IMG/VR virus record: IMGVR_UViG_3300049617_000453 | Coordinates: 1 to 20,875 of that record | Length of the DNA stretch: 20,875 nt | Source of the DNA: a virus | Reading direction: 5' to 3' (one strand) | In this document: in pieces, positions 5,709-17,842 of the stretch | Layout: every line of letters starts with the position of its first letter | Numbering within the stretch: the stretch's first letter is position 1 | Notes under the pieces: model-generated | The model's input: only the letters and a program-made list of their open reading frames with translations | What the model was told of the DNA's origin: nothing | The model's database searches: none | Program-made: the position numbers and the translations under genes

Positions 5709-6836
5709 ATGGCGCTCAACCGGCCGACGCTGCCCAGTTTGATCACGCAGACCCAGCAGCAGCTTTGCGCGCGGCTGCAAGGCACGTCCACGCCCGCGAC
5801 GGTGGCGAATACCCTGGTGTTCGGGCTGGTGCTCGGGCAGCAGCTCAATATCAGCTACGGCTACGCGGACCGAATGGCGAGCAACTTTTTCCTCTCCACC
5901 GCGCAGGGCGGATATTTGGACTTGCGCGCCTACGACTACGCGATTTTTCGCAAGCAGGCGATCGCGTCGGCGGGGGCGGTCACGGTCACCGGGTCGGTCG
6001 ATGCGGCGCTGCCCGCCGGCACCATCCTGCAGACCCAGGACGGAACGCTTTCCGTCGTCACCGCCGCTGCCGGGAATACGGGCAGCAGCGGCAGCGTCAA
6101 TGTGGCGGTGAATGCGCTTACCGGCGGCAGCGCGGGGAATTTGCCCACCGGGACGATTATGGGGCTGGTGAGCGCGGTCCCGGGAATCAACGGCCAGGCG
6201 ACCGTTGCATCGCCGGGCTTGACGGGTGGGGTGGATCAGGAAAGCGATACGCTGCTGCGCGCGCGGGTGCTGGCGCGCACGCAAAGCACACCGCAGGGCG
6301 GCGACCGGCAGGATTTCTTCAACTGGACACTCGGAGTTTCCGGTGTAACCCGTGCGTGGGTGTATCCCAATCTTTATGGCGCTGGGTCGGTGGCGGTGGC
6401 GCCGGTCTATGACAGCCGCGCCCCCGGCAGTATCCTGCCCACCGGCGCCGACCTGACCAATGTGGTCGCGGCGCTGAACGCGTCCGGACCGTGCATCGGA
6501 GAATTCTCCGCGTTCGCGCTGGCGGAGGACTCCATTGCGGTCACAATCACCAATCTTGTAACCCAGAACGGATATTCCACCGCGACCGTCACCGCGAATA
6601 TCCAGTCGAGCCTGGCGTCCCTGTTCGCCCAGACGACCCCTGGAGGCGCGGCGGCGGGCAGCAACGTGATCCAGAACAATGGCACTCCCACCAGCGGCAC
6701 ACTGCCGCAGGAGGTCATCTCGGCCGCGATCGCGACCAGCGCTGGTGTGTTCACCTTCGACCTTGCGGCGCCGGTCGGTGATATCGTCAGCGCGACAGGT
6801 CATATCGCGGTGCTTGGCACGGTCACTGTGACATGA
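5709..6836 (+). CDS. Baseplate J-like protein, Mu gp47-like
   Basis: 375 residues from ATG 5709 (MALNRPTLPSLI). An ATG at 5705 opens a different, shadow frame. Family features are the N-terminal NRPTLPSLITQTQQQLCARLQ, a YADRMASNFFLSTAQGGYLDLRAYDYAIFRKQA helix-rich segment, and a GSVTVT/beta-rich middle. The diagnostic stretch is GGVDQESDTLLRARVLARTQSTPQGG followed by GVSGVTRAWVYP. Baseplate J proteins form the wedge of contractile tails and transmit the contraction signal. The C-terminus is beta-rich and ends in VTVT. The following gene overlaps as ATGA. Complete, of typical length, no sign of decay. Confidence 0.92.
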   Translation: MALNRPTLPSLITQTQQQLCARLQGTSTPATVANTLVFGLVLGQQLNISYGYADRMASNFFLSTAQGGYLDLRAYDYAIFRKQAIASAGAVTVTGSVDAALPAGTILQTQDGTLSVVTAAAGNTGSSGSVNVAVNALTGGSAGNLPTGTIMGLVSAVPGINGQATVASPGLTGGVDQESDTLLRARVLARTQSTPQGGDRQDFFNWTLGVSGVTRAWVYPNLYGAGSVAVAPVYDSRAPGSILPTGADLTNVVAALNASGPCIGEFSAFALAEDSIAVTITNLVTQNGYSTATVTANIQSSLASLFAQTTPGGAAAGSNVIQNNGTPTSGTLPQEVISAAIATSAGVFTFDLAAPVGDIVSATGHIAVLGTVTVT

Positions 6837-7396
6837 GCGGCGCGATTACCAGCGGTAATCCGCAAGCGTATCTGACCAGCCCGAACTTTTCGCAGCAATT
6901 CCTGTCGCTGCTGCCGCCGGGAAGCGCTTACGGCGCGGTCGCGCAGAGTTTGTCTTTCGGCGTAGGGGACGCGTTCGCAGGCTTGCGCGCGTACGTTTCA
7001 AACATCACTGAGACGGAGATGGTTCCCGCGACGGCGGATCAATTGTTGACGAACTGGCAGTATGATTTCGGATTGCCGGATTGCTGTTCCGCGCTTTCCC
7101 CCACCCTGCCGCAACAGCAGGCCGATCTGGTGGCGAAAATGCAGGCAACCGGGGGGCAGTCTGCGTCCTACTTCATCAGCCTGGCGGCGAATCTGGGTTT
7201 TCCGGGCTGCACCACCGCGCGCTTCCGGCCGGCGCGGTATGGGGATTTCTACGGCACGCGATATTACACGCTGAGTTGGCGGTTCGTGTGGCAGCTCACG
7301 GTCCGCGCGCCGGAGACGGGCGCGACAGAGCTGATTTGCCGGGTGACGCAATATCAACCGGCGTATGGCGTGGTCATTTTCAACTTTACGGGTTGA
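6833..7396 (+). CDS. Mu gp48-like tail/baseplate protein (DUF2313/YmfQ type)
   Basis: 187 residues; ATG 6833 overlaps the baseplate J stop. The pattern fits the gp48/YmfQ (DUF2313) family, which follows baseplate J in Mu-like phages and connects baseplate and fibre. It includes FSQQFLSLLPPGSAYG near the N-terminus, a helix ending ETEMVPATADQLLTNWQYDFGLPD, QQQADLVAKMQATGGQS, then FRPARYGD and the C-terminal LICRVTQYQPAYGVVIF. The length matches. Its position directly before the fibre genes agrees with a P2 gpI-like role in tail-fibre attachment. No anomalies seen. Confidence 0.86.
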   Translation: MSGAITSGNPQAYLTSPNFSQQFLSLLPPGSAYGAVAQSLSFGVGDAFAGLRAYVSNITETEMVPATADQLLTNWQYDFGLPDCCSALSPTLPQQQADLVAKMQATGGQSASYFISLAANLGFPGCTTARFRPARYGDFYGTRYYTLSWRFVWQLTVRAPETGATELICRVTQYQPAYGVVIFNFTG

Positions 7397-7400
7397 TCCG

Positions 7401-8636
7401 ATGCAATTTTCCACCGCACCTGGCGTCGTCGCTCTCGGCAGCGGCGACCGGCCCATCTCCACCGCGACTGTCGGCGATTGCACCAGCGGCAATCCGTCCG
7501 CAGTTCCACCTGTGCTGCCCAGCGAAATCTGGGCCGCGGACATGAACATGGTGCTCTACGAGTTGTGCAATGTAGTCACGGCGGCTGGGCTGACACTCTC
7601 CACGGTGACTCTCAACCAGGTGGCGACCGCGATCGGGGTGATGATCAACGATAAAATCTTCGTGCCGGAGTATATTCCCGAAGGATCGAACACCGTCGCC
7701 CTGACCACCACACAGATCGACGCCAGCGCGATCATTGTCATCAACGGAACCCCGGCGGGAACAGTGACCGTGAATTTCCCGGCGGGGGCCGGGTGGAGCG
7801 GCATTTTACGCAACGCCACCGCCCAGCCATTGAGCGTGGCAGTCACAGGTCAAGCTGGCGATGTCGCGGAGACGCCTGGGACAATCCCGCCAACAACGGT
7901 TCTGGCATATTCGAGCAAGGAAATCTGGTCGGACGGCGCGGCGGTCTATCTGGCCACGGCCGATGGCGGCGACCTGAATATCGCCAATAATTCCTCGATC
8001 ACCGGCATTCCGACCCTGATCGCCAACGCGATCGCGGCGATCCCTCATGGTGTGGAGTATTTTGGGCAGGGCGCGATGACCTGGACCGTGCCCGCCGGTG
8101 TTTATTCGGTAAAAATCTGGTTGTGCGGCGCAGCGGGTGGTGGTGGTGGTGGTGTGGCCAGTGCGGCGGGAGGCGGCGGCGCCGGCGGATCGGTTTTGCG
8201 CATCGCCGAGCAGGTCGTGCCGGGTCAGGTGCTCGCGGGGGGCATCGGCGCCGGTGGGGCCGGGGGCGCTGCTGGCGCGGGTGGCGCCCAAGGTGGCACC
8301 ACGACCTTCGCCGGCCGCAGCCTCACTGGTGGCGCGGGCGGGACGGGCGGCACATCCGGCTCCGCGCTCGGTTTGGGGGGCAATATCGGCAGCGTGAGCG
8401 GGCTGGTTGCCGGCGACGTCTCCCTGGGCGCCGGCGACGGCACCGCGGGCTCCTCGTCCGGCGGGATTTACATGGGCGGCGCGGGCGGCTTCCCCAACTT
8501 TATCGGCGGTGCAGGCGCGTCCGGCTCTCTCGGCAATGGCGCGTCCGGGCTCGGGCCCGGCGCGGGAGGCGCGGGCGGCGCGAACGGCACGCCGGGCGGC
8601 CCGGGCGGCGACGGCGCGGTGCTGATCGAATGGTAG
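7401..8636 (+). CDS. Glycine-rich tail-fibre / receptor-binding protein
   Basis: 411 residues from ATG 7401, four bases after the gp48 stop. An in-frame ATG at 7365 would overlap gp48 and adds no conserved-looking sequence. The N-terminus (about 1-90: FSTAPGVVALGSGDRPIST...PSEIWAADMNMVLYELCNVVTAAGLTLS) resembles tail-associated attachment regions. Residues about 225-242 (MTWTVPAGVYSVKIWLCGA) lead into roughly 165 residues dominated by Gly, with GGGGGG and repeated GGAGG units, ending GGPGGDGAVLIEW. The TVPAGVYSVK-plus-glycine architecture and terminal GGxGGDGxVxIEW are typical of glycine-rich domains on phage fibres and adhesins. It probably packs as polyglycine helices at the fibre tip and contacts the host surface. 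Receptor unknown. Confidence 0.75.
   Translation: MQFSTAPGVVALGSGDRPISTATVGDCTSGNPSAVPPVLPSEIWAADMNMVLYELCNVVTAAGLTLSTVTLNQVATAIGVMINDKIFVPEYIPEGSNTVALTTTQIDASAIIVINGTPAGTVTVNFPAGAGWSGILRNATAQPLSVAVTGQAGDVAETPGTIPPTTVLAYSSKEIWSDGAAVYLATADGGDLNIANNSSITGIPTLIANAIAAIPHGVEYFGQGAMTWTVPAGVYSVKIWLCGAAGGGGGGVASAAGGGGAGGSVLRIAEQVVPGQVLAGGIGAGGAGGAAGAGGAQGGTTTFAGRSLTGGAGGTGGTSGSALGLGGNIGSVSGLVAGDVSLGAGDGTAGSSSGGIYMGGAGGFPNFIGGAGASGSLGNGASGLGPGAGGAGGANGTPGGPGGDGAVLIEW
8127..8625 (+). repeat. Glycine-rich low-complexity repeat tract
   Basis: Codons 243-408 of the fibre gene are mostly GGC/GGT/GCG, encoding GGAGG, GAGGAG and similar units. It is imperfect rather than a clean tandem array, so slippage is possible but not shown. 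Confidence 0.7.
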
Positions 8637-8640
8637 AGTG

Positions 8641-9522
8641 ATGAGCGGCACCACGCTCCTTTCGCCGAGTAACGCGAGAACGATTACGCTTGACCCCGCC
8701 AGGCCGATCTACGGAATTCCCGCGTGGCCGAACAAAAACGCGAACGATGCGCTCGATTACTGGTTCGATCTTTCGGGCGCGCTGCTCGACGGGTCGGACG
8801 GCGCATCGGCCTCGCTGGTTGCGGGGGTGCTGGAAGTGGTGGCTGGCGATAGCGCGCTCATCATGATCGGCGCGCCGCAACAGGGAAGCGCGGCGCCGCT
8901 TTACGCGCAAAACGGCTGGTTAATGGCGATGCTGGGGGGTGGCACACCTAACGCGGCCTATACCCTCATGCTCACCGCGGGAATTACCGGGGGCGGGATT
9001 ACCCGCACCTACACGCAACAGGTAACAATCCAAATGACTACGCAACAGTCCTACACCTCCGTCTTGCTTGGACCGCAAGCGGCGGTGCTGCTTGCCGGCG
9101 TAGATTTGTCCGAGAGCCTGGTGACCCCGACCGGCGGAACGCAGGAAACTCTGGCGACGGCGTTGGCTTCCGCGGGCGGCGGTGGCACCGCGGGGGTCAC
9201 GATCGATGACCTCACACAGCCTGCCGGCAACACCGCAATCACCGCATCCGTTTTGACCGCGCAGTGGACGCGCAGCACCTCCGCGAGCGCGGGCACCGGC
9301 GTCCGCATGCCCCTCCAGACACTCGCGGAGCCGGCGGAAGGCGCGCCGCCGATCGCTGGAAAACCGTTCACCTGGGTCAATCAGACCGGATCGATGGGCA
9401 TGTTCTATCCGCCGACCGGGCTCAATTTCACCGGCCTGGCCGTCAACCAGGGTGTTCCGGTGCCTTCCGGCACCGTGGTGACGGGAATCCAGTTCGCCGA
9501 CGGCGTTTGCGACATAGGATAA
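8641..9522 (+). CDS. Fibre-tail adaptor-like N-terminus with extended C-terminal domain; putative tail protein
   Basis: 293 residues from ATG 8641; the GTG immediately before (8638) would only add one residue. Residues 1-130 follow the pattern of phage fibre-tail adaptor proteins. A lysine/asparagine-containing lead (PNKNANDALDYWFDLSGALLDGSD) runs into a domain of alternating strands that ends TAGITGGGITRTYTQQVTIQM. The C-terminal half (about 185-293: TAGVTIDDLTQPAGNTAITASVLTAQWTRS ... MFYPPTGLNFTGLAVNQGVPVPSGTVVTGIQFADGVCDIG) is unrecognised and beta-rich. Lying between two fibre-like genes, it probably joins fibre to baseplate or decorates the fibre. Adaptor similarity is judged by eye; the C-terminal function is unknown. 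Confidence 0.55.
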   Translation: MSGTTLLSPSNARTITLDPARPIYGIPAWPNKNANDALDYWFDLSGALLDGSDGASASLVAGVLEVVAGDSALIMIGAPQQGSAAPLYAQNGWLMAMLGGGTPNAAYTLMLTAGITGGGITRTYTQQVTIQMTTQQSYTSVLLGPQAAVLLAGVDLSESLVTPTGGTQETLATALASAGGGGTAGVTIDDLTQPAGNTAITASVLTAQWTRSTSASAGTGVRMPLQTLAEPAEGAPPIAGKPFTWVNQTGSMGMFYPPTGLNFTGLAVNQGVPVPSGTVVTGIQFADGVCDIG

Positions 9523-9529
9523 TAACGCA

Positions 9530-12500
9530 ATGATTTTTCGTCTTCCTCTGCTGGTGGTGCTGCTGGCTGGTGTTGTCGCGCGCTCTGCGTTTGCGCAACT
9601 AAACCATTTGGACCCCGCGTTGACGGCGTCCGTGGCCTCCTTGCAGGGTCAGGTGACGACGTTGCAGAGCAGCCTGGCGGTCGATACCTCGGCAACCGCG
9701 CTAGAGGCGGCGTTGGGGAATTATTACGCGACACCAACGTCAGTCAGCGGCATGATCGCGTCCGATCTGACGGGCTACGTGACTGCGGCCACGCTCGCAA
9801 GTGATCTGTCGACGTATGAGACGCAATCCGAGCTGGCGACAACTTTGAGCGTGTATTCCACGACCACTGCCATGGACTCTGCGATTACCGCGGCGTTGGC
9901 GCCGTATGAGACGCAAGCCGCGCTGGTGACGGCGTTGGCGGCCTATGTGACCTCCGCCAGTCTCTCCACCACGCTCACAAGCTACGTGACCGCCACCACC
10001 CTGGCCGGCCAGCTCGCGGCCTATGAAACGCAGGCAGCGCTCGCGACGACACTTGGCGGGTATTCCACGACCACCGCGATGGATGCCGCGATCGCCGCCG
10101 CTCTGGCACCTTACGAGACTCAGTCCGCACTATCCGCGGCGCTCGGGAATTATGAGACGCAGGCGGCTCTGGCGACCACTCTCGCGGGGTATGTGACCTC
10201 CAGCGGCCTGACCACCGCGCTGGCGCCCTACCCGACCACAAGCGCGATGAACAGCGCGATTTCGGCGGCGATCGGCGGTGTTTCCTTTCCTGCGGCCAGC
10301 ACGGGAATTACGGGGGGCGTGCGGCTGGATTCCAGCGTCACAGGCAGTCCCGCGGTGATCAGCGCGGTCTCGCAATGGAGTGGCTTGAGCGGCCATGCGC
10401 TCGACGGCGCTACTCTGGTCGCGACCGGCGCGCAAAACGCGCTGGACGTCAACGATGCGATCGATCGCGGCGTAATCGACATTCGGGGTTTCGCCTCGGT
10501 TGGCGCGCCCTATTACGGAAACAGAACAGACTGGCATTGCGCAGTCGCGGTCAGCGGCGCGCAAGTGACATTTTCCGGTTGCAAGGGGCCGACCCCGGTG
10601 TTCACCGGCCGGTCGGGGCAGCTTATTTCCTTGCAAGCGATGGGCGTGATGCCCACGGCCGGGCCGGTCAACGGCATTGCGATCGCGCAGCCCAACACGT
10701 ATTCCTGGGGATCGGCATTTCCATCCCTCACCCTGTCCGACGTGTCGTTCACCGGGTCGGTTAGCGGCGCTACACTCACCGTTTCCGCGGTTGCCAGCGG
10801 GACCCTGGCGAGCGGAATGACGGTGAGCGGCGTCGGCGTGCCTTCCGGCCTTGTGATCGCATCGCAGCTAACGGGCAGCACAGGCGGGACCGGAACCTAT
10901 AGTCTGGCCACCACGCCCGGCACCGTGACGTCGGAGTCGATGACGGCGGCGATGGGCGAGGGCGCGCGGACCAAAATTGCCATGGCGGGCGTGGCGCCGG
11001 TGCTGCTGAGCGGAGATGACGGCGCGAATTGCCCGAACGGCACGTGGGATTTTTACAGCGGTGGCGCAGGATATGTGCCGATCTGGTTTTCCGCAACGGT
11101 GGTAAATGGCGCGATCTCCGGGGGGATCGCGCAGATACCGAACCCGATGTCAGGCGGCAACAGCACATTCGCGGGCGGTATTTCGGGCACCGTTCTCACC
11201 GTGCCTGCCAGCGCTACCGCCAGCGTGACCGGCAGCGGCGGCAGCGCGCTTATCACCGTCAATTATAGCAGCGGGCAGATCAATATCGGCGACGTGATTT
11301 CCGGGCCTGGAATCACCAGTAGCCCAACGGTTGTCTCGGAGATCCAGGCCACACCGACTCTAGTCTACCAGATCAGTTCGCCGCTGCCGTCCACGGTCGG
11401 CATCAATGTGACCGAGACCGCGACTTTTTCCGGTGCGGCGGCGGGAACGCTTGCGATCGGAGATGTGCTTTCCGGCACCAATGTCGCGCCGGGCACCTAC
11501 ATTCTGTATCAGAGCAGCGGCACTGCGGGTGGCGCGGGGACCTATGTACTTTCCGCGAGCTCCACCACCGGCGGCAGCGAGCTGCTGACAGAGGGGCTGC
11601 CTGGGTTTTTCTTCGACCATTTTCCGACCTCCGGCCAGGCTCTTCCCGCGCAGCCGTTCGGTGCGGCGCCTTGTTCCGTGCCGCCGCGCATCACCGCTTC
11701 GTTTATGGATGCGCAAATTATCGTCACCTACCCCGGAAAACGCTACGATAGCGCGACGGTGGCGGCGCTTTCTGGTGGAACCGTTGCGAGCGCGGGCAGT
11801 ATGGGCGCGGTTTCGGAATATCTTTACCCCGGTCCGCTCATGACCAGCATTGCGTCGGTGCAGTCCCCCCAGACCATTACCTTGACCACCGCGCCCGGCT
11901 ACACGCCCAGCGGTGCGGTGGACGGCGTGGCGGGGTCTGATGATGCACCCGCGTTCAACGCCGCCCGGTCCTGGCAGGGGACACTCGCGGCGCTGGGGAT
12001 CAACCGTCCGATCTATCTTCCGGTCGGCAACACGTATTTCGCCTCCGCATTGACGCCGGCGGTGAATTTCCAGGGGTCGGTGGTCGGGTCCGGCGCGGGC
12101 GATATCTCCACCGCAGTGATCGACCCCCGCGTTCCAAGCGGCAACGTCCTGGACTGCGACAATTCGTCCATCCTGTATCCCCAGGCCGGCATCTATGCCA
12201 GCAATACCCCGATCGCTCCCGCCTCTGCCACCGGATGCACTTATCGAGACATTACTTTGTTCGGGTGGAAAGAGTCGCCGAACCTTCAAAACGCCTATGC
12301 GATTTCAGGAACAAGTCAGTTCTCGCATATCGAGAATGTCGAAGCCGAGAACTTTAGCGGTAGCTGTTTACGGTTGGGCTACGCGGAGGCGAGCGGCGAC
12401 ACGGCGGGCGCATGGGAGGAGGCGACAATTTCCGGATCGGTGCGGTGCCGGTTCGACGGGTCTAAAACCGACGTGGATGCGCCTGTGATCGACGTGGATT

Positions 12501-14737
12501 CAGACCTCGCGTCCGTGACCAACACGGACGAAGGCGAAGCCGACATTACGGCGTATGGTCCGGGCAGCGAATGTATTTCTATACACAATGAAGGCACCAG
12601 CACGGCCAAGACGTCCCTGCTGCAATTCGCGATGGTAAGATGTGAAGGCGCGGTGTCATTCAACACCAATGCATTCGGGAATTTATATCCGTATGCCGGG
12701 TCAAACGGGGTGGCGAATGCGGATTTGGTGGATATCGGGTCGATCGACGGCGAGCAGGTCGAGGCGAACCCGGGCGGTAGCCGCATTACCTTCGGGACAC
12801 TGTGGGCGATTTCCCAGCAATTCGGTTTCGATGCGGTGAAAATGAGCGGCGAAGAACCGTCCGCCAGCCCGTTCGATACCAAAAACGTGATTTTCCAGAA
12901 TATCGTGGACAGTGGTGGCGCGTATGGCCCGGTCCTTGAAGTCAATGTCTGCGCGCGGTGCAGCTTCAACATCGCGGGCGGCGGCCTCCCGAAATGGGCA
13001 ACCGCGATCGTGGTCGGCCCCGCGACCAACGCGGCGTCTCAGGCCGCGGTGCAGCAGCTTTATGTAACGACGGACAGGTCTGCGTATGGGTCGTCAATCA
13101 ATACCCCTGATATTCCTCCTCTGTGGGCAGCGATCGACCCGACATCCGCAGCAGAGGTGACGATCAATGGGGTCAACGGCGATCCGACGGACCCGACCAC
13201 GGGCGGGAATTACACCCAGGGTGCATTCAATGTTCTGGGTAGCGTTTACCTCGCGGGGTGCAATGGGGTGCTGTCCGGCAGCGCGGGCGCGATTTCCTGC
13301 GGCGTCGCGGCGGCCGAGCAGACGCAGCTCTATTCCAATGCGGCCGGGGCCACGCGCGCGGCCTATGGTATCGGCACCGATGCGGAGACGGCTCCTGTCA
13401 CCAGTCTGACCGTTTCCTTCTACACCTCCGCGACGCCCAGCCCGGGGTACACCACACTGACCGTGAGCGGTGCGCCGCCTGCTTTCCAATCCGGTATGAC
13501 CGCCGAGGTCGGGTATTTCACCGCGCCCTACACGATAATCTCCACCAATCCGGGAGCCGACCAGGTGGTGGTTAGGGGTATCGTTACGCCGCTGGCCGGC
13601 GCGGCGCTGACCCTGAATTTTAATGTGGGTAGCTCGCCGTGCCTCGCGCAACTTTTTGATGACGATGGAAAATCGCTCGGCTGCGCGCTGAGTGCGGCGC
13701 GCGCGACTGGGATTTTAACGTTCGAGGCCGAGCCCTCGATCCCGACCGATAGCGGTGCCGATGCGAACCCGAGTTGGGCAACGAGCGAGGGATATCTTGC
13801 GTCGCAACTGGCAAACTACGTTGCGTCCAGCCAGCTCGGCGCGAGTTTCGGCGTCGCTACCCTGGACGGCACGGGGCATCTGACGTCCACGCAACTGCCA
13901 ACCAACGTGATCACCACTGCTCAGGTCAACGTGGCAAGCGGCGTGGCGGCGTTGAATTCTTCCAGCCAGCTTTTGACCGCAGAAATTCCAGGCACTGTGT
14001 TGACCGCCAGCAGCACGCTGACGCCCGCGCAGATGGGGAGCGGAACGGTGGGCTCCGGCGTGGTGATCAATGTGCCGACGCCCGCTTGCAATAGCAGCGG
14101 CACGCAGATCGTGGATGGTGCGTATGTGGCGAGTTGCGCGCCAACCGCGACTGCCGCCAGCCCGTTTTCCCTGCCGCACGGACTGGAGGCCAACAACTGG
14201 TATAGCACTGCGATGGGGGGGTCTATCGGGTCCGGCAGCATGGTGGTCAACCGGCGGTATGGTGCACTTTTTTATGTCCCGAATTCGAGCATCAGCCTCA
14301 AAACTCTGGGTTTTGTTTTGTCCTCGTCCGCCAGCGCGACCGGGAATTGCCGCGAATACGTGTTCGCTATTTCCGGCACTACGGACCAGCCGGGATCGCT
14401 GGTCACCAATGCCGACACGGGGAATATCTCAGTGACCAATGGCACCGCCGCCGGCGCCATCACCACCACACTCGCCACGCCAGCGACGCTGGCCCAGGGG
14501 TGGTATGTGCCTGCGCTGATTTGCGATACAGTGTATTCGGTTACCGGGCTGAGCTCCACGACGCCCAGCCTGTTCGGGGAATATGTGGTGGGCAGCGGCA
14601 GCGCGGGTAATGCGGGGTCGACGGCGGGTCCGACCAATGGTTACTACGCGGCATCGACGGTCACATCCGTCTCCAGTTTCGGCACCGCCTCTGTCCTTTC
14701 GGGGAATTTCATGCCCGTGATCGAACTCGGGTTCTGA
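9530..14737 (+). CDS. Giant repeat/beta-helix tail fibre or surface adhesin with N-terminal signal peptide
   Basis: 1735 residues from ATG 9530. Residues 1-22 (MIFRLPLLVVLLAGVVARSAFA, cut before Q23) form a convincing Sec signal, odd for a virion protein. Residues 83-250 hold about 13 units of 13 or 17 residues starting Y-x-T, such as YETQAALATTLAG and YSTTTAMDAAIAAALAP, probably a trimeric helical stalk. Related beta domains of the GxLxV...GTGGTGTYSL type lie near 407-472, 547-631 and 633-687. From about 770 a pectate-lyase-like right-handed beta-helix begins (DGVAGSDDAPAFNAA, then RPIYLPVGNTYF and a VVGSGAG turn), typical of tailspikes. Near 1420-1480 two copies of a fibre motif occur, GVATLDGTGHLTSTQLP and GVAALNSSSQLLTAEIP. 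The C-terminal 200 residues are beta-rich. Role inferred as polysaccharide recognition or depolymerisation; no catalytic residues identified. It may instead be a host surface protein. Confidence 0.72.
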   Translation: MIFRLPLLVVLLAGVVARSAFAQLNHLDPALTASVASLQGQVTTLQSSLAVDTSATALEAALGNYYATPTSVSGMIASDLTGYVTAATLASDLSTYETQSELATTLSVYSTTTAMDSAITAALAPYETQAALVTALAAYVTSASLSTTLTSYVTATTLAGQLAAYETQAALATTLGGYSTTTAMDAAIAAALAPYETQSALSAALGNYETQAALATTLAGYVTSSGLTTALAPYPTTSAMNSAISAAIGGVSFPAASTGITGGVRLDSSVTGSPAVISAVSQWSGLSGHALDGATLVATGAQNALDVNDAIDRGVIDIRGFASVGAPYYGNRTDWHCAVAVSGAQVTFSGCKGPTPVFTGRSGQLISLQAMGVMPTAGPVNGIAIAQPNTYSWGSAFPSLTLSDVSFTGSVSGATLTVSAVASGTLASGMTVSGVGVPSGLVIASQLTGSTGGTGTYSLATTPGTVTSESMTAAMGEGARTKIAMAGVAPVLLSGDDGANCPNGTWDFYSGGAGYVPIWFSATVVNGAISGGIAQIPNPMSGGNSTFAGGISGTVLTVPASATASVTGSGGSALITVNYSSGQINIGDVISGPGITSSPTVVSEIQATPTLVYQISSPLPSTVGINVTETATFSGAAAGTLAIGDVLSGTNVAPGTYILYQSSGTAGGAGTYVLSASSTTGGSELLTEGLPGFFFDHFPTSGQALPAQPFGAAPCSVPPRITASFMDAQIIVTYPGKRYDSATVAALSGGTVASAGSMGAVSEYLYPGPLMTSIASVQSPQTITLTTAPGYTPSGAVDGVAGSDDAPAFNAARSWQGTLAALGINRPIYLPVGNTYFASALTPAVNFQGSVVGSGAGDISTAVIDPRVPSGNVLDCDNSSILYPQAGIYASNTPIAPASATGCTYRDITLFGWKESPNLQNAYAISGTSQFSHIENVEAENFSGSCLRLGYAEASGDTAGAWEEATISGSVRCRFDGSKTDVDAPVIDVDSDLASVTNTDEGEADITAYGPGSECISIHNEGTSTAKTSLLQFAMVRCEGAVSFNTNAFGNLYPYAGSNGVANADLVDIGSIDGEQVEANPGGSRITFGTLWAISQQFGFDAVKMSGEEPSASPFDTKNVIFQNIVDSGGAYGPVLEVNVCARCSFNIAGGGLPKWATAIVVGPATNAASQAAVQQLYVTTDRSAYGSSINTPDIPPLWAAIDPTSAAEVTINGVNGDPTDPTTGGNYTQGAFNVLGSVYLAGCNGVLSGSAGAISCGVAAAEQTQLYSNAAGATRAAYGIGTDAETAPVTSLTVSFYTSATPSPGYTTLTVSGAPPAFQSGMTAEVGYFTAPYTIISTNPGADQVVVRGIVTPLAGAALTLNFNVGSSPCLAQLFDDDGKSLGCALSAARATGILTFEAEPSIPTDSGADANPSWATSEGYLASQLANYVASSQLGASFGVATLDGTGHLTSTQLPTNVITTAQVNVASGVAALNSSSQLLTAEIPGTVLTASSTLTPAQMGSGTVGSGVVINVPTPACNSSGTQIVDGAYVASCAPTATAASPFSLPHGLEANNWYSTAMGGSIGSGSMVVNRRYGALFYVPNSSISLKTLGFVLSSSASATGNCREYVFAISGTTDQPGSLVTNADTGNISVTNGTAAGAITTTLATPATLAQGWYVPALICDTVYSVTGLSSTTPSLFGEYVVGSGSAGNAGSTAGPTNGYYAASTVTSVSSFGTASVLSGNFMPVIELGF
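9776..10279 (+). repeat. Array of about 13 stalk repeats (13- and 17-residue units)
   Basis: Codons 83-250 encode units beginning Y[E/V/S/P]T with hydrophobic residues at fixed positions. Near-identical nucleotide words recur: variants of TATGAGACGCA for YETQ, and TATTCCACGACCAC for YSTTT. The order (V, E, S+insert, E, V, V, E, S+insert, E, E, V, P+insert) suggests duplication of multi-unit blocks, not simple drift. Confidence 0.8.
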
Positions 14738-14764: not shown

Positions 14765-15052
14765 ATGCATGATAGGACGGACGCGGAACGGACACGTGAC
14801 GTGCGGGAAAATGTCAGCGCTGCGCTGGGCTTCAACGTGGAAAGCAATGGCGACCGCGACACGGAGCGGCGCGATCGCGTGGCGCGGTTTATCGACGAGG
14901 GGTTGCGGCGTGAGGATCGCGCGGTGCAGCTGCGCGCCGCGATCGTGGGCCGTGGTCTGGCGCTTCTGGCCTCCGCGATCACCGGTATTGCTGCTGCATT
15001 GGCCAGCGGCGGAACGCATTGGATCAGGGTGATGAAGGAAATTCTGCAATGA
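14765..15052 (+). CDS. Small single-TM protein in the lysis region, holin candidate
   Basis: 95 residues. The ATG at 14765 has an excellent Shine-Dalgarno, AAGGAAAGG at 14753-14761. The first 55 residues are very charged (many Asp, Glu, Arg) and helical. Residues about 59-81 (AAIVGRGLALLASAITGIAAALA) form one membrane segment, followed by a short WIRVMKEILQ tail. I do not recognise the family. A C-terminal single TM next to an endolysin fits a small holin or an accessory (antiholin, membrane-anchored regulator). An unrelated tail-anchored protein cannot be excluded. The next gene overlaps as ATGA. Confidence 0.6.
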   Translation: MHDRTDAERTRDVRENVSAALGFNVESNGDRDTERRDRVARFIDEGLRREDRAVQLRAAIVGRGLALLASAITGIAAALASGGTHWIRVMKEILQ

Positions 15053-15204
15053 TCGCGGCAATGATCGATGTCGTCCGTAATCGGAAATTCCTGTTGCGAT
15101 GCGCGCTGCCGATGTTCGTTGCTGGCTACCTGTTCGGGAGCATCTACACGCATTACCTCGATGCGCTGGGCACGGGGTGCATTTCTGTCGTGATGCCGAA
15201 ATGA
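15049..15204 (+). CDS. Very small single-TM protein, holin/lysis candidate
   Basis: 51 residues; ATG 15049 overlaps the previous stop (ATGA) and its own stop overlaps the next ATG, so it is translationally sandwiched. An upstream in-frame ATG at 15019 is rejected because it lies deep in the previous gene. The sequence has a short basic N-terminus (VVRNRKFLLR), one TM segment at about 15-36 (LLRCALPMFVAGYLFGSIYTHY) and a short tail with a cysteine. Length and topology fit a class III-like holin or an antiholin partner of the 95-residue protein. No family recognised. Confidence 0.55.
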   Translation: MIAAMIDVVRNRKFLLRCALPMFVAGYLFGSIYTHYLDALGTGCISVVMPK

Positions 15205-15677
15205 GTGGGCTGTTTCTCGTTCACCTGAAGAGTCTGGTCGTGGTGCCCACCCTGGCCGCGTTGCCGGCTGGATATTCGTCGCAGGCGGCGGTGAATCTGC
15301 TGACCGGAATTGCGCTGGTGGAAAGCGGCGCGGAATATCTGGCGCAGATCGGTGGAGGGCCCGCGATCGGGCTGTGGCAGATGGAACCCGCGACGCACGA
15401 TGATTGCTGGGACAATTTCATCCGTTTGCGTCCCAGCCTGGTCACGGCGATGGCATGCTTGATGAATAGACAGCCGGAATACACCCAGCTGCAAGCCAAT
15501 CTGGCTTATGCGTGCGCGATGGCGCGGATAAAGATCATGCGCGCGCCCGAAGCTTTGCCGGACGCAAACGACGCCCCGAGAATGAGTGCCTACCACAAAG
15601 AGTTTTACAATACCTGTGGCGGCTCGGCGGACTCGCAGCACAACATCCCGGTTTTCCAGCAGGCTATCGACGCATGA
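15201..15677 (+). CDS. Endolysin, lytic transglycosylase/lysozyme-like
   Basis: 158 residues; ATG 15201 overlaps the previous TGA. The core LLTGIALVESGAEYLAQIGGGPAIGLWQMEPATHDDCWDNFIRLRP is the pattern of phage-type SLT/lysozyme-like endolysins. The catalytic Glu is E41 in the ES motif, followed by a GxGPAxGLxQMEPxT substrate-groove motif. The second half has a YTQLQANLAYACAMARIKIMRAPEALP helix and YHKEFYNTCGG, in which a conserved Tyr is likely part of the active-site cleft. It would cleave peptidoglycan glycan strands at lysis. The N-terminus is only weakly hydrophobic and contains a Lys, so I do not call a signal or SAR sequence. Export probably depends on a holin from the preceding genes. 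Confidence 0.8.
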   Translation: MSGLFLVHLKSLVVVPTLAALPAGYSSQAAVNLLTGIALVESGAEYLAQIGGGPAIGLWQMEPATHDDCWDNFIRLRPSLVTAMACLMNRQPEYTQLQANLAYACAMARIKIMRAPEALPDANDAPRMSAYHKEFYNTCGGSADSQHNIPVFQQAIDA

Positions 15678-16702: not shown

Positions 16703-17842
16703 TCACGGCGCGGTCGGGTAGGTCCAGATTGTCCCGCAGCCGCCGGGAATAAACGGTTTCGCTGGGCAGTCCGTGGTGTCCGTTCCGCCGAATGCGCTGA
16801 CGTCGTAGACAACCCCGCGCGCGATGACCGGTGTTCCGGTGTTGCCGGCGGGGCCGGGTGGACCATCGAACGTCGCGAGCGTGGTCAGGCTGGCATCGGA
16901 CCCGGACAGCTCGGCGAAATAGCTTTCGCTGAGCCCGGCGATGCCGGACTTTAGTAGCCCGAAATAGAGGTTTCCGGCTGGGTCCACGGTGGGGGCGGAT
17001 GGAACCTCGCAGACCGTAATGAATGCCTTCAGCACCCGGTAGACGCCGGTAGCGGGGCTGAACTGCCAGATGCCGCCGCATTGCTGATTGAGGCCGAACC
17101 GTGCGACCCCGTAAAGGTCGCCGTCGGCCGATTCGGCGGTGATCGCCTGGTCGGTGCCGTTGTCCGTGCCGGTGACACTTGCCACGTCCGGGTTGAATTC
17201 CCCGGTGATGGTGTTGAATGACCAGAAATCGTAGCCTGACGCGACCCGCGCGGTGCCCCAGAACACGCCGGACCCATCCAATACGCCTGGATTGTTGTAA
17301 TTCCCGTCGAAATTGGCGGGAAAACTCAATACCTGCGAATACTGTAATGTGGTGGCGTCGAGTTCGTAGATGCCGCCCGAGCCGTTGGCGCCGCCCTGGC
17401 GCGCGAACCCGAACAGGTTCTGGCCCGGCCCAGCGTAAATCCCGACGGGCTCGCTGAGACCTTGCGCTTTGCCGAACGTGTGTAGTCTAGATATTTTCCC
17501 GGTAGCGAGCGAGGCCATCAACACCTCGCCTGCTTTGTGCGCGCCGCTGTCGGACGTTGCCCAGAAAAGGTGCCCTGGCCTGTAAGCGACCGGAGAACCG
17601 TAGGGGCTTTCGCCCTCCGGAAGCGCGAACAGGTCGCTGTAAACGCCGGTCGGGCCGATTTGAAACGCGGTGTTGGACCCGAGCCCGTAAATGATTTGCC
17701 CGGTCGCGTTGGGCACTAAGGTGCTCACGAAACTGCCGCCGCCTTCTGTGGCGCCGTCCAACGAATGCACAACGGTGATTTGGGCGAAAGCTGGTCGTGC
17801 GAGGGCCAAGGCGGAGGCGGTAAACAACGCGGCTTTGAGCAT
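16703..17842 (-). CDS. Secreted repeat (GloVer / beta-propeller-like) protein, possible moron
   Basis: 379 residues on the minus strand. ATG at 17842 is chosen over longer frames because AGGGAG (plus 17851-17856) lies eight bases upstream and it starts a clean signal peptide: MLKAALFTASALALARPAFA cut before Q21. The mature protein repeats blades of the kind xVxHSLDG ... GNLYFG / GSGGIYELDATT ... VLSF, for example ANGSGGIYELDATTLQYSQVLSFP, GDLYGVARFG with GGIWQFSP, and PAGNLYFGLL. This is the style of GloVer-type tandem-repeat exported proteins, which probably fold as propellers. No catalytic motif is seen. It lies 29 bp after the HTH gene in the same orientation. Being secreted and antisense to the late genes, it is a candidate lysogenic-conversion gene. 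Confidence 0.72.
   Translation of the reverse strand: MLKAALFTASALALARPAFAQITVVHSLDGATEGGGSFVSTLVPNATGQIIYGLGSNTAFQIGPTGVYSDLFALPEGESPYGSPVAYRPGHLFWATSDSGAHKAGEVLMASLATGKISRLHTFGKAQGLSEPVGIYAGPGQNLFGFARQGGANGSGGIYELDATTLQYSQVLSFPANFDGNYNNPGVLDGSGVFWGTARVASGYDFWSFNTITGEFNPDVASVTGTDNGTDQAITAESADGDLYGVARFGLNQQCGGIWQFSPATGVYRVLKAFITVCEVPSAPTVDPAGNLYFGLLKSGIAGLSESYFAELSGSDASLTTLATFDGPPGPAGNTGTPVIARGVVYDVSAFGGTDTTDCPAKPFIPGGCGTIWTYPTAP

Follow-up and report, generated by a model that had tools for sequence, protein, structure and literature searches.

A predicted Sec signal peptide on a giant fibre-like protein of a Mu-like phage and the recurrence of such proteins at the tail-fibre position

By the general view, tailed phages fold their receptor-binding fibres and put them together in the cytoplasm. 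The locus described here raises the question of why a fibre-like protein encoded in a tail operon would carry an export signal, and where such a protein would act. The window, that is, the whole stretch of 20,875 nucleotides analysed, is virus DNA (IMG/VR record IMGVR_UViG_3300049617_000453, positions 1-20,875), and its left part was recognised from Pfam and PHROG matches and the order of its ORFs as a Mu-like contractile-tail operon. The genes run from a DNA-circularisation-type protein (PF07157 match) and the baseplate hub through baseplate J, gp48, a glycine-rich fibre and an adaptor to the protein in question, which is followed by a 95-aa protein and a transglycosylase-like protein. The features considered are as follows.

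5709..6836, + strand: baseplate J, Mu gp47-like (PF04865, E=2e-51)
6833..7396, + strand: Mu gp48-like baseplate wedge protein (PF10076, E=6e-18)
7365..8636, + strand: first tail fibre with a glycine-rich tip (PF21722, E=6e-9; phrog_863, E=5e-14)
8638..9522, + strand: putative fibre-tail adaptor, 294 aa, a GP4 gp77-like domain plus about 160 extra residues (profile search)
9516..9519, + strand: Shine-Dalgarno-like AGGA, 10 bases ahead of the ATG
9530-14737, + strand: ORF of the giant fibre-like protein, 1735 aa
9530..9595, + strand: predicted Sec/SPase-I signal peptide MIFRLPLLVVLLAGVVARSAFA, 22 residues (our own rule and the sequence)
9596..9616, + strand: predicted mature N-terminus QLNHLDP
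9596..14737, + strand: predicted mature fibre-like protein, aa 23-1735, with 20 cysteines in 10 successive pairs
9725..10267, + strand: stalk of 13 Y-x-T units spaced by 13 or 17 residues, aa 66-246
10706..11053, + strand: shared repeat module, aa ~393-508, the region matched in four of five matching genomes
14765..15052, + strand: 95-aa protein with a hydrophobic C-terminal stretch by reading; no PHROG match
15099..15677, + strand: transglycosylase-like protein (phrog_3108, E=8e-37; Pfam SLT under the cut-off), with a likely start near 15204 by alignment

The preliminary description had placed the 1735-aa protein at the fibre position, and the gene order agrees, since the gene follows the baseplate genes and a gp77-like adaptor and lies ahead of lysis-type genes. 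The first tail fibre is without a signal peptide and has 3 cysteines. As a single query the adaptor reached Pfam PF23148 at E=0.0068, under the cut-off, and did not match gp77 in the PDB; a profile of seven sequences, the window's included, matched GP4 gp77 (PDB 8jou_D) at E=8e-11. On this profile search the protein encoded directly upstream of the 1735-aa protein appears to belong to the GP4 gp77 adaptor type. On the strand opposite to the tail and lysis-type genes, positions 16703-17842 (minus strand) encode another protein whose start, MLKAALFTASALALARPAFA, looks like a signal; TIGR03803 tandem-repeat (choice-of-anchor GloVer) domains come after it.

The reality of the signal depends on the start codon and on how often such a match arises by chance. 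The ATG of the ORF lies 7 bases past the stop codon of the adaptor gene and the next in-frame ATG is codon 75; with the intervening GTG and TTG codons compared by their upstream bases, the first ATG is credibly the best start by ribosome site and spacing. Residues 5-17 contain the sole 13-mer in the protein that contains none of D, E, K, R, H, N and Q and has a mean Kyte-Doolittle value of at least 2.5. The signal peptides were called by a rule of our own, not by SignalP, which looks for K/R in the n-region, a hydrophobic core and an AXA-type site. The 1735-aa protein has a positive n-region, such a core and such a site, and the rule places cleavage after residue 22, so that the Sec signal described at 9530-9595, followed by QLNHLDP, was recovered at exactly those coordinates. 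Among 260 genes of at least 120 aa located at or upstream of baseplate J in J-bearing loci, the rule flagged two, both resembling real signals, and it flagged 5/435 antisense ORFs; with default starts, it flagged 12 of the 86 genes of at least 250 aa that lie between J and the transglycosylase gene. Given the low rates in the antisense and upstream controls, the match in the 1735-aa protein stands well above chance.

The fibre features claimed for this protein fared unevenly. The stalk repeats are present as Y-x-T units, and the beta-helix and C-terminal tip were left unconfirmed by Pfam, PHROG and PDB searches. The N-terminal part had no family match that would indicate a tail-attachment module in the same chain, and the signal peptide stands there instead. 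Two pattern scans of viral contigs gave no full-length homologue, tblastn of the whole protein and of its C-terminal 195 aa against 50,697 phage records gave nothing over the cut-off, and the PDB sequence search gave no match. Pfam and PHROG likewise had no match to the whole protein and two below-cut-off matches to its parts. A single-sequence AlphaFold2 model of residues 1541-1735 had a mean pLDDT of 38 and was unusable; a second AlphaFold2 model, with a mean of 36, was unusable too. In the family of an Acidiphilium genome (locus L005), which we take to be Acetobacteraceae, 5 of 299 genomes matched part of the protein, four of them in the shared repeat module; the fifth match (L012, aa 552-670) is weak and falls inside an IMP-dehydrogenase-like gene by reading. 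An outer-membrane C-terminal signature, suggested by the terminal F of the window protein, was set aside as inconsistent by reading among other signal-peptide proteins. As no full-length homologue was found, the argument for the 1735-aa protein proceeds by analogy and from its own cysteines.

For the same reason, related loci were collected through the adjoining transglycosylase-like protein. Two overlapping sets, the best 80 of 223 related stretches and, from a second scan, the best 80 of 193, yielded 48 loci with a recognisable baseplate J, including the window, phiAP1, L005 and near-duplicates. With alternative starts allowed, sixteen of these 48 have a gene for a long signal-peptide protein in the interval from J to the transglycosylase gene; rule hits in L035 and L047 were left out of the 16 as false starts, L022 and L024 are identical in sequence, and in L084 the signal-peptide protein precedes the first fibre. 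Examples of these starts are MKKMIFLAALAAFFVSGACA (L018), MRKFLLISVLLPSLAVA (L044), MKKLFVYMLVGAGVFASAAYA (L059), MRKISSFLISFLLAVSAHA (L070) and MKKILLSLICCGAFGVAHA (L075). We set the start codon ourselves in L022, L025, L040, L048, L057, L069, L074, L189, L193 and L197, and the cleavage site in L191, which our rule had not called.

The preliminary description had asked for the N-termini of homologues to be compared, which could be done for related families, the 1735-aa protein itself having no detected full-length homologue. Two N-terminal regions of related families matched 7 and 8 of 397 genomes of one family, and 9 of the 11 fetched loci carry a signal peptide (L188-L193 and L195-L197, with an author-set start or cleavage site in L189, L191, L193 and L197). 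Of the other two, L194 has an ambiguous signal, and the weak match of L198 falls in a large protein that is unrelated by reading. Where hosts are named, the recurrent arrangement belongs to phages or genomes of acetic acid bacteria. Phages bearing gp77 were considered as a precedent for a fibre signal and rejected: of six regions, five have a fibre after gp77, and none of these fibres, in BcepMigl, BcepIL02, Atu_ph08, PBC5 and Itty13, carries a signal, although GP4 gp77 (8jou_D, PF23148) is of the same adaptor type as window 8638..9522; the sixth region, DSL-LC06, has a terminase next to gp77.

Even cysteine counts are preferred in exported proteins of Gram-negative bacteria, according to one report (PMC7678975), and we used even, paired mature cysteines as a supporting mark of an exported protein, not as a strictly defining one. 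The number of mature cysteines is even in all 30 collected signal-peptide proteins, being 20 in the window protein and 2, 4, 6 or 8 in the others. In nine of the 30 the precursor total is odd, owing to a cysteine inside the signal peptide. Counting pairs in succession (1-2, 3-4 and so on), the gap within a pair has a median of 14 residues and is at most 30 in 72 of 84 cases, and the gap between pairs has a median of 137.5 and is at most 30 in 3 of 54. These counts are not independent, as single linkage gave six families with 19 of the 30 proteins in one of them; at the family level, Fisher tests gave p=0.04 against all control clusters (48/84 even) and p=0.006 against control clusters of at least 400 aa (14/37 even). 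Among 32 hand-chosen proteins of the fibre region without a signal, 26 have at least two cysteines, of which 13 are even in number, and the cysteines of the 26 show no pairing. For the 1735-aa protein alone, random placement gives the ten-pair pattern with p=0.004; of 11 proteins whose pairing was tested alone, L025, L040 and L052a miss p<0.05. Two proteins found later, outside the 30, have 8 (L204) and 2 (phiAO1) mature cysteines. The parity and pairing point to signal cleavage and to disulfide formation outside the cytoplasm.

The composition of the set bears on these numbers. Left out were the false start in L035 (8 cysteines) and the false hit in L047 at 6284, proteins in other than the fibre position (L124, L147), a 212-aa protein (L053), a fragment (L010), tail-operon proteins of about 250 aa (L014, L015, L019, L021) and L194, with an ambiguous signal and 14 cysteines. 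Two proteins downstream of the transglycosylase gene were also excluded (L092 at 10516, 483 aa with 7 cysteines before cleavage; L030 at 10489, 246 aa with 5 before cleavage), as were the duplicate contigs L024, L100, L101, L136, L137, L152, L157 and L159. In L028 the gene is split, and its first ORF, with 2 cysteines, was counted (the second has 6); the L084 protein was counted although it lies ahead of the first fibre.

The related loci also differ in how the fibre is divided. In L018, L020, L022, L028, L044, L059, L075, L083, L169, L204, phiAO1 and phiAP1, a separate short protein of 97-208 aa is followed by a long signal-peptide body, the phiAP1 signal being out of frame. L029, L035, L042, L043, L047 and L092 have a single long fibre, signal-less and attachment-like at its start. 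The short protein resembles the N-terminal module of these fused fibres by BLAST in two comparisons (phiAP1 to L043, E=6e-6; L059 to L029, E=2e-11) and by reading in the remaining loci, where PHROGs gave weak matches or none. No separate mini-fibre is encoded in the window, where the additional C-terminal residues of the adaptor occupy that place; a separate short protein is likewise missing from L040, L069 and L084. In L046 and L055 a split short protein precedes signal-less bodies with 4, 3, 3 and 7 cysteines, so splitting alone does not accompany export.

In the pairs compared, the signal-peptide proteins retain their first 90-240 residues and exchange the remainder; L075 and L083 are 81% identical over the first 242 aa, and phiAP1 and L059 76% over 92 aa. 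By analogy, a conserved start joined to a swapped body looks like a receptor-binding protein. An NH motif lies within 12 residues of the cleavage site in 13 of 30 mature proteins, as PNH[LIM] in 12 members of a single family and as QLNHLDP in the window protein. The resemblance of QLNHLDP to PNH[LIM], with which exported fibre-like proteins of acetic acid bacteria begin, was noticed post hoc and is suggestive only. Small peptides of 47-63 aa with a signal (by reading in L169) bear PNHxLPQF and are encoded directly ahead of the signal-peptide fibre gene at the following positions.

L006 (phiAP1), 13321-13461
L059, 6798-6938
L204, 10366-10506
L169, 7258-7446

In L025, the signal-peptide protein at 8000-9682, directly before the transglycosylase gene, has a Laminin_G_3 domain (PF13385, E=5e-15) and a GDSL esterase domain (PF13472, E=1e-7).

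Two described phages carry the arrangement. PhiAO1_380 of Acetobacter phage phiAO1 (BCZ75793.1; 820 aa, annotated as hypothetical) resembles the window protein in its place after a gp77-like adaptor, assigned by order and reading, and after a short protein; it has a signal peptide followed by RPNHLLPQYQ and two mature cysteines. It differs in being shorter and in that the short protein, 188 aa by our call, is a separate gene, and tblastn of the phage collection containing phiAO1 showed no similarity between it and the window protein. phiAO1 was reportedly sequenced from particle fractions and predicted to be an incomplete phage (PMC8566455). As it has the same genes as L188-L192, a reading of those loci as domesticated tailocins was dropped.

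PhiAP1_570 of Acetobacter phage phiAP1 (BCZ75852.1) has the same gene order as the window, with a signal encoded directly upstream; unlike in the window protein, the signal is encoded in another frame than the body, which is free of cysteine. In the phiAP1 record (L006), the frames part at a G run within 13471-13560, and the body is annotated from an internal ATG; in L059 and in L204, a near relative of phiAP1, signal and body share one frame. The same report describes sequencing of phiAP1 by Illumina, infection of a cured host detected through a marker, with no plaques, and tail fibres seen by TEM in 0 of 15 strains, a result that does not discriminate (PMC8566455); the word "signal" is absent from its main text. 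As phiAP1 infects with its signal out of frame, either it can do without the exported form, or its body no longer needs export and would be produced within the cell.

Taken by analogy and from its sequence, the 1735-aa protein is very probably exported, cleaved and oxidised: analogous proteins in related phages retain a signal peptide, and their cysteines are even in number and paired, in the manner of exported oxidised proteins, which supports the export proposed earlier. The broader reading, of a late-made, Sec-exported and oxidised fibre-like ligand-binding protein that acts outside the cytoplasm and exemplifies an arrangement recurring in Mu-like phages, is likewise probable. From the computed features (signal, operon position, cysteine parity and pairing, the split short protein in related loci and bodies conserved at the N-terminus and variable at the C-terminus), we infer actual export, disulfides, timing, partner and function. 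The gene would be made together with the late tail genes; its product would leave the cytoplasm through Sec, lose its first 22 residues and be converted into a disulfide-bonded form in the periplasm, and would act outside the cytoplasm, not as a fibre put onto the tail inside the cell. The recurrent order would then start with an adaptor, in many cases followed by a short attachment fibre, and continue with the fibre body, encoded separately and with a signal peptide, before the lysis-type genes. The oxidised body may be the receptor-binding part, which would reach the tail only at lysis and dock through its conserved mature N-terminus onto the short fibre or the adaptor. Docking at lysis fits the gene position, the split short protein and the body swapping; if the protein is exported, it is the likeliest mode of action, with a chance that we put a little under even. 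The whole two-compartment assembly, in which a Sec-exported, disulfide-matured receptor-binding body joins a tail built in the cytoplasm (adaptor and mini-fibre) only on mixing at lysis, is tentative.

An exported and oxidised protein might instead never join the virion. Acting late in the envelope or after release, it could bind or degrade a host surface glycan or receptor, and would stop progeny from sticking to debris or exclude further phages; we regard this as quite possible, while short of probable. Phage T5 Llp, a small lipoprotein, and lambda Lom, an outer-membrane barrel, are phage-encoded exported proteins; Llp offers a functional parallel and lom, which lies among tail-fibre genes, a parallel of placement. 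Both are exported, as proposed for the 1735-aa protein, but neither is fibre-like. A released factor would suit a phage that encodes another, glycine-rich fibre, as the window does, or a mini-fibre, as its relatives do; it would also suit the lectin-like and esterase member in L025, infection by phiAP1 with its signal out of frame, and the small signal-bearing peptides with the same PNH motif that adjoin the gene in phiAP1, L059, L169 and L204. Against it, the gene position and the body swapping are those of a receptor-binding fibre, and in the Mu-like loci examined no long fused second fibre was seen together with a short protein and signal body. L048, of a different phage type, encodes a 715-aa fibre as well as a signal protein, and L046 and L055 have neither form.

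The remaining readings depart further from export late in infection. Display on the lysogen, as a lysogenic-conversion adhesin or a captured host adhesin, would suit a large repetitive protein with a signal peptide and the neighbouring minus-strand TIGR03803 protein, whose start also resembles a signal. It is improbable, as Pfam finds neither an anchor nor a barrel domain, and the gene is closely set among its neighbours, only 7 bases from the adaptor gene on the tail side and with lysis-type genes on the other, which makes expression late in infection likelier. Thus lysogen-surface display, one option in the preliminary description, gained no specific support, and capture from a host is not needed for proteins that are encoded within phage tail operons and swap modules with one another. 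That the protein is a cytoplasmic virion fibre, with a signal-like stretch that is vestigial or skipped by a later start codon, recalls the phiAP1 body annotated from an internal ATG; the choice of the first ATG by ribosome site and spacing and the cysteine parity and pairing across 30 proteins make this very improbable. Another option raised earlier, an uncleaved hydrophobic element for attachment in the virion, has in its favour the single strongly hydrophobic segment at the fibre end that would join the tail. It conflicts with the AXA-type cleavage sites retained across unrelated families, with the nine of 30 precursors that become even only when cleaved, their odd cysteine lying inside the signal, and with the quite different beginnings of the fused fibres, and we consider it the least probable of all.

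Among the matches listed in the open-access literature (subscription journals lie mostly outside it), no description of signal peptides on proteins at the tail-fibre position was found. For target proteins of diversity-generating retroelements, one report takes a missing signal peptide as support for a phage origin (PMC6199706). Recurrent exported, disulfide-paired fibre-like proteins, if true, would amount either to an assembly route not described before or to secreted phage adhesins that have gone unnoticed as a class, and docking at lysis, if true, would be categorically new.

Other coding features were noted in the tail regions compared. In Sinorhizobium phage PBC5 (L097), orf16 at 7939-8988 starts with a signal peptide and lies near, not at, the gp77-linked fibre. 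A cysteine-containing signal-peptide protein of about 250 aa is encoded in the tail operon upstream of J in L015 (2250-3014) and L021 (2403-3155), and also in L014 and L019. Long antisense ORFs of 768 and 705 aa lie in the middle of the tail operon in L200 (10600-12903, reverse-complement coordinates) and L201 (10565-12679), respectively.
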